In this document: positions 17,098-54,762 of the stretch, one piece after another
Numbering within the stretch: the stretch's first letter is position 1
Layout of the letters: each line of letters begins with the position of its first letter
Source of the DNA: an uncultured Bacteroidota bacterium
GTDB lineage: Bacteria > Bacteroidota > Bacteroidia > Flavobacteriales > Flavobacteriaceae
Assembly: GCA_902587325.1 (NCBI GenBank)
Contig: CACIKV010000001.1
Coordinates: 1-64,000, forward strand
Direction of reading: 5' to 3'
DNA length: 64,000 nucleotides
The notes under the pieces: model-generated
What the model was told of the DNA's origin: nothing
Seen by the model: only the letters and a program-made list of their open reading frames with translations
The model's database searches: none
Program-made: the position numbers and the translations under genes

Positions 17098-17171
17098 GGT
17101 CGCGTAGCTCAGCTGGATAGAGCATCTGCCTTCTAAGCAGACGGTCGCACGTTCGAATCGTGCCGCGATCA
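17098..17171 (+). tRNA. tRNA-Arg (anticodon TCT)
   Basis: A full cloverleaf can be drawn: acceptor arms GGTCGCG and CGCGATC (one G-U pair), D-arm GCTC/GAGC, anticodon stem TCTGC/GCAGA with loop CTTCTAA giving anticodon TCT, and T-loop TTCGAAT. CCA is not encoded. It reads AGA codons, the usual Arg codon in A+T-rich genomes. A terminator follows at once. Confidence 0.97.
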
Positions 17172-17173
17172 CT

Positions 17174-17203: not shown

Positions 17204-17371
17204 ATCTGTATATCGGGGCACTCAACATTTAAAAACTGTGACTATTAAGATTTTAGTCAATTTATAAAAAATACTCAATAGTATCAATAATTTAATAATA
17301 ATTGGCAGTTATATGGCAGTTATTTAATTAGTAAGAAAAAGAAATATAAACTCAAAATTTTACAAAATGTA

Positions 17372-17618: not shown

Positions 17619-18065
17619 ATGAAAAAACTAATTCTACTATTACTATTTATTCCACTTGTTTCTTTTGCTCAAGAAGAAGTTATAGTTATCGTGGAATTAA
17701 TAAAAAATGAAAATAAATCTGAAAAAGATTTAAAAGATTTCACTGAAAAATATAGTAATTATGTAAAAAGTACTGAACCCAACACATTAGGATGGTCATA
17801 TAATGATGCTGGAGATAAAATAATTTTAATTGAAAGATATAAAAATGAAGATGCTAATATTATAACAGCAAAAAATATTTCTCCAAATGGGAATCGATAT
17901 AAACTGCTACAAGAATCTTTTGATTTTTACACCTTAAAAAAAGTAACCGTAACTGGCGGTTTTACTGAAAAACTAATAAATTTTAATAAAATAACTGCAG
18001 AAAAAGTAGGATTTTCAGTTCCATTTGAATATTATCCTCTGATTAGCGGATACAGTAAAAATTAA
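17619..18065 (+). CDS. Small secreted protein with ABM-like (dimeric alpha/beta barrel) features
   Basis: A 148-residue protein with a signal peptide (MKKLILLLLFIPLVSFAQ). The mature part has the pattern of an antibiotic-biosynthesis-monooxygenase-like ferredoxin fold: a first strand (EVIVIVELIKN), a helix, then TEPNTLGWSYNDAGDKIIL and an ERYKNEDA turn. That is a resemblance, not a family assignment. Its first 47 bases are identical to those of the next gene, which lies 2 bases downstream. Function unknown. Confidence 0.75.
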   Translation: MKKLILLLLFIPLVSFAQEEVIVIVELIKNENKSEKDLKDFTEKYSNYVKSTEPNTLGWSYNDAGDKIILIERYKNEDANIITAKNISPNGNRYKLLQESFDFYTLKKVTVTGGFTEKLINFNKITAEKVGFSVPFEYYPLISGYSKN

Positions 18066-32508: not shown

Positions 32509-32583
32509 CGGGGTGTAGCGTAGCCCGGTTATCGCGCCGCGTTTGGGACGCGGAGGTCGCAGGTTCGAATCCTGCCACCCCGA
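32509..32583 (+). tRNA. tRNA-Pro (anticodon TGG)
   Basis: Acceptor arms CGGGGTG/CACCCCG, anticodon stem CCGCG/CGCGG with loop TTTGGGA giving TGG, T-loop TTCGAAT and discriminator A. CCA is not encoded. A partial, diverged copy of a tRNA-Pro 3' end is found at 34155-34181. Confidence 0.96.
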
Positions 32584-32588
32584 CACTT

Positions 32589-32630
32589 AAAAATTCCAAT
32601 TAGTTGATTATCAGTTGATTGGATTTTTTT
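32589..32630 (+). terminator. Intrinsic terminator of tRNA-Pro(TGG)
   Basis: AAAATTCCAAT pairs with ATTGGATTTT with one bulged base, followed by a run of T. Standard tRNA terminator position, 6 bases after the gene. Confidence 0.7.
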
Positions 32631-32634
32631 ATTA

Positions 32635-32651
32635 TGGATACTAAGTATCCA
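32635..32651. repeat. Palindrome TGGATAC-TAA-GTATCCA (left boundary)
   Basis: A 7-bp perfect inverted repeat around TAA. A related and longer palindrome, sharing TGGATACTAA, is at 34074-34096. The pair brackets the EF-hand gene pieces. Confidence 0.6.
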
Positions 32652-32657
32652 AATCAA

Positions 32658-33083
32658 CTAACTTCTTAATGATTTAGTGTTTTTGTTGAGTGTGTATAGT
32701 TGGTATGTATTAATTCCAGTTAATAAATTATTAAGATTTATTTTAGAACCAATACTTTTTAGATTAGAACTTAAAGATGAATTAAGACTTTTTAGTGAAT
32801 CGTTTATCATCATATTTCCCTGACTTACTGTCTTTACTGTCTTATTTAATCTGTTCAAATTTATTTGATTCATAATTGACATTTTTAATATTTCATTTGT
32901 TATGGATATTTCCATTTTATTAATTGAAAACATTAAATCATCTAATTTAGAACCAATATTTTCTAATTTATTAGAAACCTCATTTTCCCAATTAGAGTTG
33001 AAAATATTTAATTTATCTAATGTCAAATAAATTTCATTAAATGTTAAAAGGTCTTTTTCCACCAATGATATTATCATTATCAT
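32658..33083 (-). pseudogene. Coiled-coil C-terminal part of a frameshifted protein
   Basis: From the first ATG the frame gives 141 residues, with repeating Leu/Ile/Met heptads (residues 30-100) that suggest a coiled coil, and the ending NNLLTGINTYQLYTLNKNTKSLRS. The frame stays open upstream to about 33190 without any ATG, and directly meets the end of the upstream frame. Removing one base from the five-T run at 33189-33193 would join the two frames into one protein of about 450 residues. It is most likely the C-terminal part of a broken gene, or of a single gene with a sequencing error. Confidence 0.6.
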
Positions 33084-33180
33084 TGAATTATAAGAGAGTA
33101 GATTAAATGTGTCAATTTGATTTTTTAAAACTCCTGTAAATTCTTTGAGTTGATAGGTGTTTTTGGAGGTTTTTATTTTT

Positions 33181-34014
33181 TCAAACTGTTTTTATATTTT
33201 CTCTTTTAGTCTTTAAATAGTTTGAAACTTGAATAAATTTTGTAATGTGATTTTGGTCAATATCAATAATTGAAACTTGATGTTTTTTGAGTAGGTTCAT
33301 AAAGTCATCTTGTCCTTGATTAAAATCAATTATTCCATCACTATCTGTGTCAAATTCCTTTGAAATATCTGAAATGTCTTTTTTTAATACTTCTTTTCTT
33401 TTTTGATCTTTCCAATATTGTTCTTGTTTTTGTTTTAACCATTTTTCTTTTTTAATTCTTTTCTCTTCCTCTTGTAATTTAAATCTTTTTTCATCTTCTT
33501 TCTTCTTTTTCTTCAATCTTTCTTTGTGGATTGAACGTTGTTTATCAAACTCTTCAGGAAGTTTATTAATGAACTCTTCAAAGACTTGATATTCAAGTTT
33601 AGTTATTTGAAGTTGTTCTCTTCTTTTACCAAAATAAACATAATATAGTTCACCAAAAATTCCACCTGAATTAATAGTAAAAATCTTGTTAAACTCATCA
33701 ATTGATTCTATTTCATAAATATTAATTCTCTCTACATAATCATCAAGTCTACATTTGATTCCACTTCCACCTAGATAAGAGGGATCTGAGACTAAAATAC
33801 CAGATTTAAATCCATAATTACCTTCTACAGTAAAATCAATGTTTAAACCATGAAGATTATATTCCCAATATTTTTCTTCTAATTCATTACCCCAAATTAT
33901 TGGTTTTTTAAAACCATTTAATAATCCTCCCTTATTTGATTTACTTTTATCATACTTCTCTATTATTTTTTTCAATAGTGGGTATGCATTAAGTTTGAAT
34001 TTATTTTTGTCCAT
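33181..34014 (-). CDS. EF-hand/coiled-coil protein, N-terminal part of a frameshifted gene
   Basis: A 277-residue product starting at ATG 34014 (a GTG three codons earlier is less likely). The first 150 residues contain beta-rich segments (NYGFKSGILVSDPSYLGG, FGELYYVYFGKRR). A long, highly charged Lys/Glu helix follows (about 155-215), then one EF-hand-like loop DTDSDGIIDFNQ whose last position is Gln, not Glu. No signal peptide. I recall similar EF-hand proteins ending in a coiled coil; here that end is in another frame. Function unknown. Confidence 0.65.
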   Translation of the reverse strand: MDKNKFKLNAYPLLKKIIEKYDKSKSNKGGLLNGFKKPIIWGNELEEKYWEYNLHGLNIDFTVEGNYGFKSGILVSDPSYLGGSGIKCRLDDYVERINIYEIESIDEFNKIFTINSGGIFGELYYVYFGKRREQLQITKLEYQVFEEFINKLPEEFDKQRSIHKERLKKKKKEDEKRFKLQEEEKRIKKEKWLKQKQEQYWKDQKRKEVLKKDISDISKEFDTDSDGIIDFNQGQDDFMNLLKKHQVSIIDIDQNHITKFIQVSNYLKTKRENIKTV

Positions 34015-34073
34015 TGATGTCACTAAAAATAAACAAAACTTTCTTAAAAAAAATAACTTTCATGTTAGAAAAG

Positions 34074-34096
34074 TTTGGATACTAATAGTATCCAAA
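34074..34096. repeat. Palindrome TTTGGATAC-TAATA-GTATCCAAA (right boundary)
   Basis: A 9-bp perfect inverted repeat around TAATA. It shares TGGATACTAA with the left palindrome at 32635. Confidence 0.65.
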
Positions 34097-34154
34097 ATGG
34101 GTGAAAATGTAGTAAAAAATGGATTTTTCTCCTGTGTATACGAAGGAAACAAGG

Positions 34155-34181
34155 GTAGGTTCAGATTCTGTCAACCCGACT
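34155..34181 (+). repeat. Degenerate tRNA-Pro 3'-end copy (possible attR)
   Basis: The segment reads like a T-arm and the 3' acceptor strand of tRNA-Pro: AGGTTCAGATTCTGTC then AACCCGACT. I count about 6 mismatches against 25 bases of the tRNA-Pro(TGG) gene 1.6 kb upstream, and about 5 in 28 against tRNA-Pro(GGG) at 54689. No other part of a cloverleaf is present, so this is not a working tRNA. Confidence 0.5.
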
Positions 34182-34333
34182 AAAATTCCTTAAAATTTAC
34201 ATCACCACTACAATAGATTTGAGTAGCATCATACTACTTTACATCAAAATTACATAACTATACAAAATTTATTATATTTTTGCTTTCAGTTAGTAATATT
34301 TTTTTTATATAAATAACTCATTTACAATATTTT

Positions 34334-54688: not shown

Positions 54689-54762
54689 CGGAATGTGGCG
54701 CAGTCTGGTAGCGTACACGCATGGGGTGCGTGGGGTCGCAGGTTCAAATCCTGTCATTCCGA
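54689..54762 (+). tRNA. tRNA-Pro (anticodon GGG)
   Basis: Acceptor arms CGGAATG/CATTCCG, anticodon stem CACGC/GCGTG with loop ATGGGGT giving GGG, T-loop TTCAAAT and discriminator A. CCA is not encoded. It lies 45 bases from the sulfatase start and 22 bases before the sugar dehydrogenase ATG. Confidence 0.95.

Follow-up and report, generated by a model that had tools for sequence, protein, structure and literature searches.

The island that follows tRNA-Pro(TGG) in the window, the 64,000-nucleotide stretch of DNA analysed here, is probably a non-autonomous integrative cassette of one gene, moved by a recombinase that is supplied in trans and that reads the tRNA core together with paired motifs at the ends of the element. 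Elements with these ends have been inserted or excised exactly at the core, carry different cargo between common ends, have passed between species and have end motifs that match left with right, while a sister cassette at tRNA-Met has been transferred between genera. None of the cassettes assembled in full encodes a recombinase. The copy in the window itself can probably no longer move or make its full protein.

tRNA-Pro(TGG) occupies 32509-32584 on the forward strand (ARAGORN), so the tRNA named by the first-pass annotation as the left boundary is real. Its 3′ end, identified as the integration target from the ARAGORN call and from empty sites in relatives, is intact at the left junction. Here lies the crossover core CTGCCACCCCGACA (32572-32585, +), which in junction alignments is common to the left and right junctions of the elements in genomes G001 and G008. 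Beyond it the left end of the element begins with an inverted repeat and T-run (32593-32630, +) followed by TTATGGATACTAAGTATCCAAA, an order kept in the window, G001 and G008. The inverted repeat and T-run would serve as a new terminator for the tRNA. The two related palindromes that had been reported inside the boundaries are present, GGATACTAAGTATCC at 32636-32650 in the left end and GGATACTAATAGTATCC, with the pattern GGNTACTAN{0,2}TAGTANCC, at 34077-34093 in the right end. Both are proposed arm sites for the recombinase, and in G008 the left one changes in step with the right one. Allowing up to three mismatches the left palindrome is expected 0.03 times per window and was observed at one place.

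The right end runs from GGATACTAATAGTATCC through about 40 bp to a box, GTATACGAAGGAAA, then GGGTAGGTTCAGATTCTG and the tRNA core CCACCCCGAC, after which host DNA follows; G008 differs in small details. The box in the window, GTGTATACGAAGGAAA (34134-34149, +), is shared with the tRNA-Met cassette described below, and the right junction is a tRNA-like T-arm and acceptor strand at 34152-34181 (+). The stretch at 34155-34181, which had been taken for a tRNA-Pro-like 3′ end, equals the 3′ end of tRNA-Pro(TGG) at 20 of 27 positions. This lies above every sequence simulated with a first-order Markov model, where the best match was 19, reached once in 2000 sequences of 2 kb and once in 200 of 64 kb. 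At the same place the right junctions of G001, G008 and G014 have the exact core. Since the window reads TGTCAACCCGACT instead, its right core has been eroded or recombined. As described, the island holds no integrase or transposase: frame reading, with family searches of the two cargo frames, gave no recombinase among the listed frames of 32585-34181. Like tRNA-targeted integrative elements, this one is inserted at the 3′ end of a tRNA gene and has a repeat of that end at its other boundary, but the integrase gene that such elements carry themselves is missing from both the window and G001 copies.

To place the island among its relatives 23 genomes of the genus were compared, the window's own (G000; 1.475 Mb in 51 contigs, 84.8% complete) and 22 others. 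The right end, consisting of the palindrome, the CGAAGGAAA box and the tRNA-like 3′ end, was found in four of them. The spot after tRNA-Pro(TGG) lacks the element in 16 and is unreadable in three (G011, G013 and G018). A segment of conserved core DNA, the case that would have spoken against a mobile island, does not show this distribution at a single spot. The other carriers, G001, G008 and G014, whose assemblies are 59-83% complete, were also recovered by an exact right-end scan of genome contigs. In each of the four carriers the right-end palindrome pattern occurs at one place, always within such a right end, and the reversed control gave no match. A matching left end is present in three of the four; the G014 contig stops inside the element, which is read from its right side only. 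A search of 299 genomes of the family with three mismatches allowed found the window only, a sample that includes just the window's genome and one more of this genus and is therefore consistent with four carriers. The further copies of the palindrome pair that the annotation had proposed to look for do exist in other genomes, where they enclose different cargo, though no second place was found in the window's own genome.

The usual order in the genus is trxB, tRNA-Pro(TGG), a short interval and tRNA-Pro(GGG). In the 15 other genomes where a single contig holds both tRNAs, this interval measures between 80 and 1911 bp; it is 1785 bp in G001, element included, and 22 kb in the window. When the flanks of the G001 element are joined, the result aligns to the empty site of G020 with no gap and 99.2% identity over 600 bp. 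The joined flanks of the G008 element, which come from two contigs, match G021 at 90.2% over 600 bp with one gap, and the right flank of G014 aligns with G002 from the core onward at 69% over 606 columns. No relative with the window's own right flank was seen among these genomes. These empty sites, together with the same ends in relatives, support the earlier view of the far junction as an attR-like mark of integration at a tRNA gene. Both the G001 and the G008 elements precede the same 139-aa gene, so their sites are one ancestral interval. Separate insertions there, or one old insertion followed by exact losses, are both possible and would look alike; whether by gain in G001 and G008 or by exact loss, a site-specific step is needed.

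Between these ends three kinds of cargo are found: an EF-hand/coil gene in the window and G014, an HNH endonuclease in G001 (358 aa; Pfam HNH_2 4.3e-9, PADLOC HNH 1.5e-22) and a MORN-repeat gene in G008. The last is visible at two contig ends only, and the G014 contig stops within its EF-hand/coil gene. The cargo genes begin near the right end and run toward the tRNA. Over 952 bp the elements of the window and G014 share 95.4% identity, and the similarity stops at 34185, just past the tRNA-like core; core genes of the same two genomes (a 2.2-kb block) share 73%. The simplest account of this difference in sequence identity would be a recent transfer between species.

It had been suggested that a mobility gene was either lost or acts in trans. 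Action in trans fits better, because recombinase-free copies share compact ends with different cargo, and loss fits less well. The fuller form of the idea of loss is a decayed remnant, a cis-mobilizable element in which a larger island shed its integrase and transfer genes and kept its junctions and one gene. Remnants of this sort are known at other tRNA and tmRNA sites (PMC5704250, PMC3146451), and the window copy is indeed frameshifted with an eroded right core. Nevertheless, one compact plan recurs around different cargo, the core is exact in three of the four right junctions, and the copies in the window and G014 resemble each other far more closely than their hosts do. It would be surprising if separate decay events repeatedly arrived at the same minimal plan, and we regard this origin as unlikely.

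The sister element is a one-gene cassette of about 0.64 kb at tRNA-Met, with a 133-aa gene and the same box, found in G000, G017 and G021. A genus-wide search for the box with one mismatch gave 16 matches, seven of which are right ends (four at tRNA-Pro and three at tRNA-Met); the other nine are without the remaining features, and the reversed control gave six matches. Among 397 genomes of the family there is one further tRNA-Met cassette, in G247 of another genus, a 95% complete genome with two PF00589 proteins only, both Xer-sized. It is 99.2% identical to the cassette of G017 (5 mismatches in 634 aligned bases, plus 12 gap columns) and follows the same tRNA, in dissimilar surroundings and with an altered right core. 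By comparison, the Xer genes and their surroundings are 67-70% identical between the two genera over the longer matches. By eye, G020 shows the empty state for the G017 cassette. The cassette of the window's genome is overall 88.8% identical to that of G247 and 89.0% to that of G017. In the latter comparison the gene is 97.5% identical, the left end 79.4% and the right end 71.0%. The cassette was not found in plasmids, nor the 133-aa protein in viral contigs or phage records.

These transfers bear on a further explanation, that cargo was exchanged through homologous recombination in conserved flanks (trxB and the tRNA to the left, right-end DNA or the following gene to the right), without any further site-specific step once a first insertion had taken place. 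The left flanks are conserved, and the recurrence of the 139-aa gene after the G001 and G008 elements would suit such exchange. Yet the similarity between the window and G014 ends at the core, and the tRNA-Met cassette stands in another genus among dissimilar surroundings, so that this explanation appears very unlikely.

The tRNA-Met hot spot also holds larger islands, with type III restriction genes in G000, type II restriction genes in G017 and a 533-aa integrase (Arm-DNA-bind_5 and PF00589) in G013. As the box is absent from all three of those read, they may be served by another enzyme. In the window's genome the type III restriction island and the 133-aa cassette lie in tandem at tRNA-Met (positions 1282-8330 of L157, G000:C3:26500-38500), and both members of the tandem are bounded by tRNA-Met 3′ ends. 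With one tRNA-Pro cargo a restriction-type endonuclease and two tRNA-Met islands carrying restriction-modification genes, defence is a plausible benefit of such elements. The hint comes from the HNH cargo and the tRNA-Met restriction islands and not from the EF-hand/coil gene.

Each tRNA-Met element that was read has its own short motifs, present twice in the left end and repeated in the right end; at tRNA-Pro the short motifs are GGATACTA or GGGTACTA. The match between ends was scored with weighting for composition and compared across permutations for eight of 11 elements, using stretches chosen after seeing the data, and the true left-right pairing ranked first of 40320 permutations for direct matches and seventh of the same number for inverted ones. 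The three left out were G001 and G021, which are near-duplicates, and G014:C2, whose right end is truncated. Under the inverted score an element's own partner was beaten in two of the eight rows (G008 and tRNA-Asn) and tied in one (G013), and under the direct score it was beaten in one (the 133-aa cassette of G000) and tied in one (the window). For the restriction island of G017 the inverted score is highest at a 28-nt repeat different from its short motif. Comparison of the ends by longest exact word was too noisy to be used (mean of 10.7 for own ends and 8.1 for others; 37 of the 110 unmatched pairs reached at least 9). In G008 both palindromes read GGGTAC/GTACCC, against GGATAC/GTATCC elsewhere, a G replacing an A. 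Its motif GGGTACTA is also that of the G013 integrase island, which is its best inverted partner as well. That island is a lead for a helper of the G008 element, though core, target tRNA and box differ.

The palindromes could alternatively be mere transcription terminators or insulators with no role in mobility, given that the left one follows the tRNA terminator and that together they flank the gene. In several tRNA-Met and tRNA-Asn elements, however, the left-end motifs are direct repeats that form no hairpin and are still paired left with right, and a purely transcriptional role would seem highly improbable.

Similar repeats are found past other tRNA genes, namely tRNA-Asn, tRNA-Ala in G384 and tRNA-Arg in the window. 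At 17303-17322, about 130 bp past the 3′ end of tRNA-Arg(tct) (17098-17172), TGGCAGTTA (TGGCAGTTATATGGCAGTTA) occurs as two direct copies, in a layout resembling the left ends of tRNA-targeted islands. A far junction was sought, and within the window there is no copy of the tRNA end with up to 6 mismatches of 22 save inside tRNA-Pro(TGG). An island in the window's genome (L169/L153, G000:C7:20794-30817) is bounded by tRNA-Asn and a second, almost complete copy of this tRNA, encodes a 346-aa integrase and several small secreted proteins, and has TTGTCAGTT at both ends.

We infer that a tyrosine integrase moves the cassette in trans and uses the motifs as its arm sites. The ends of the cassette would consist of a crossover core, formed by the last bases of tRNA-Pro(TGG), and of matched inner motifs that resemble the arm-type sites of tyrosine integrases. 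As the motifs pair left with right, the trans-acting recombinase most likely reads both ends. A temperate phage or a different integrative element in transit through the cell may supply it. By joining DNA at the core it would place the cassette behind the tRNA, an entry that would restore the tRNA 3′ end and supply a new terminator.

No recombinase accompanied by these motifs, the match that the annotation had proposed to seek, was found in the genomes or viral contigs searched. G001, G008 and G014 have two PF00589 proteins each, all Xer-sized, in their 59-83% complete assemblies. A recombinase gene could lie in the missing middle of the G008 or G014 element, as both are partly assembled. The window's genome has a third PF00589 protein, the 346-aa integrase of the tRNA-Asn island, with no tie to the element. 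Xer recombinases act at dif-like sites. That the host XerC and XerD move the cassettes is scarcely credible, even with only Xer-sized PF00589 proteins seen in G001, G008, G014 and G247, since one fixed host enzyme would not need element-specific end motifs and the core, a tRNA T-arm and acceptor end, does not appear dif-like.

Viral contigs gave no match to the right-end pattern and none to the tRNA-Met right end, and none with these element ends appeared in the scans. The right end matched seven phage records, each in short stretches covering at most 25% of the query. A scan for both palindromes returned 21 contigs, most of which look by eye like chance matches in coding sequence, and none of the 21 has the tRNA-Pro core or T-arm with up to one mismatch. 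One IMG/VR stretch of 58% G+C, L087, holds two copies of the GGATACTAAGTATCC palindrome about 145 bp apart (approximately 1109-1264) without the tRNA-Pro core. The tRNA core itself occurs in 30 stretches of viral contigs, 18 of them in whole tRNA genes (16 tRNA-Pro and 2 tRNA-Met) and 12 outside. Integrases with a tRNA-Pro target and a like layout do exist in viral contigs: in L191, L208 and L200 (IMG/VR) a PF00589 integrase gene lies 140-180 bp from the tRNA-Pro core, and in L191 and L208 the integrase has an Arm-DNA-bind_5 domain as well and stands beside a partial tRNA-Pro(TGG) 3′ part. The short direct repeats after the core are GGCAG in L191 and GGTTACC in L208. The three integrases were rejected as helpers of this element because the repeats beside them are not those of the window element. 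L191 and a further stretch, L194, come from a single contig and may represent both of its junctions.

The frameshifted EF-hand gene described by the first-pass annotation was recovered. The cargo gene of the window is cut in two by a one-base frame offset, as read from the sequence, with a 280-aa N-terminal part at 33184-34023 (−), delimited from the frame listing, Pfam and homologue comparison, and a coiled-coil-like C-terminal part at 32658-33083 (−). The N-terminal part has a single EF-hand-like loop, DTDSDGIIDF, that is plainly legible, but the Pfam EF-hand match is weak (E 0.027) and under the curated cut-off. The homologue in G014:C2 is one unbroken frame of 436 aa, and the C-terminal part in the window is 54% identical to that of this protein. 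Each half of the window gene weakly matches one PHROGs family without an assigned function (E 0.0035 and 0.0015), and no function for the EF-hand part came from searches of PDB, Pfam, PADLOC or NCBIfam. The predicted structure of the EF-hand part has a mean pLDDT of 49 and was not relied on.

Relatives of the EF-hand/coil gene occur at eight places, and the tie of the family to tRNA sites is only partial. Three adjoin a tRNA 3′ end on the same contig (the window, G014:C2 and G384). For G014:C5, where the contig stops, adjacency to the tRNA would follow only indirectly. No tRNA is near those of G008:C1, G104, G132 and G359 within the stretches fetched. In G384 the homologue (L233, G384:C16, 4761-6026) is 93 bp off the 3′ end of tRNA-Ala(ggc), immediately past which stand three direct TGGCAACT-like repeats. 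In viral contigs no relative of the protein was confirmed.

Cassettes at tRNA sites and integrase-free remnants are already known; what appears new is the minimal one-gene, integrase-free form with paired end motifs. The additive flexible islands of Methylophilaceae (fGI-2, from 330 bp to 42 kb at one tRNA; PMC10872708) and of Alteromonas (fGI1; PMC4119200) are likewise cassettes of variable size at a single tRNA with 3′-end repeats. In the available portions of those papers, however, they are described without paired end motifs and without a recombinase-free one-gene unit traced, exact ends included, between genera. CIMEs have attL and attR and no integration or transfer genes (PMC5704250), and resemble the island in this, with the attR of the window eroded. 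They differ in being decayed ICEs or IMEs according to the same text, whereas the integrase-free form described here is recurrent and seems to be spreading. In the window and G001 elements the frames showed no remnant of an ICE or IME. CALINs too consist of small gene units that depend on an external recombinase for movement (PMC11389934), but the site used here is the 3′ end of a tRNA, and the end motifs are paired. PICMIs and other phage satellites are similarly tiny, marine and helper-dependent, and PICMIs protect the host from other phages. PICMIs encode core proteins for excision and replication (PMC10803314), unlike the fully assembled cassettes, in which no such gene was seen. Tycheposons are tRNA-bordered cargo elements of small marine genomes too, although as described in PMC10872708 they measure 4-200 kb and carry a tyrosine recombinase. 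The cassettes here measure 0.6-1.6 kb and lack one, the window element being 1.6 kb with no recombinase frame. Among the matches listed in a literature mostly without subscription journals, and within the portions available, there was no description of one-gene units with paired end motifs.

A broader reading, which we put forward tentatively as a possibility, is that streamlined marine flavobacteria share an integron-like exchange without an integron, in which a pool of one-gene cassettes enters tRNA genes, the end motif pair chooses the phage or island integrase, and some of the cassettes probably serve defence. If this were so, a cassette could change helper by acquiring a new end pair and still keep its cargo, as is suggested by the G000 and G017 copies of the tRNA-Met cassette with their similar genes and divergent ends. 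The cassettes offer a concrete, testable unit for the gain and loss of single genes at tRNA hot spots in small-genome ocean bacteria, and are small enough to go whole into a plasmid assay. If the paired motifs are arm sites, they would predict which integrase acts on which cassette. As such elements carry no mobility gene for annotation tools to find, some genomic islands may be recognisable by their ends alone.

About 20 kb of polysaccharide-utilisation-like genes separate the island from tRNA-Pro(GGG) at 54689. Named by frame reading, these genes (34334-54643) include a sensor-regulator, SusC/SusD-like, glycosidase-like and sulfatase genes. The locus was rejected as part of the element, as the right end precedes it and as the sulfatase beside tRNA-Pro(GGG) has a counterpart between the tRNAs in G012 and G003, where it is the only counterpart between the two tRNA-Pro genes. 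Elsewhere in the window, at 17619 and 18068, a near-identical stretch of about 47 nt encoding the signal peptide MKKLILLLLFIPLVS opens two otherwise different small secreted proteins. By list count this stretch occurs at 13 places in the window's genome and at least once in most genomes of the genus, and at the sequence level it looks like a reused module.
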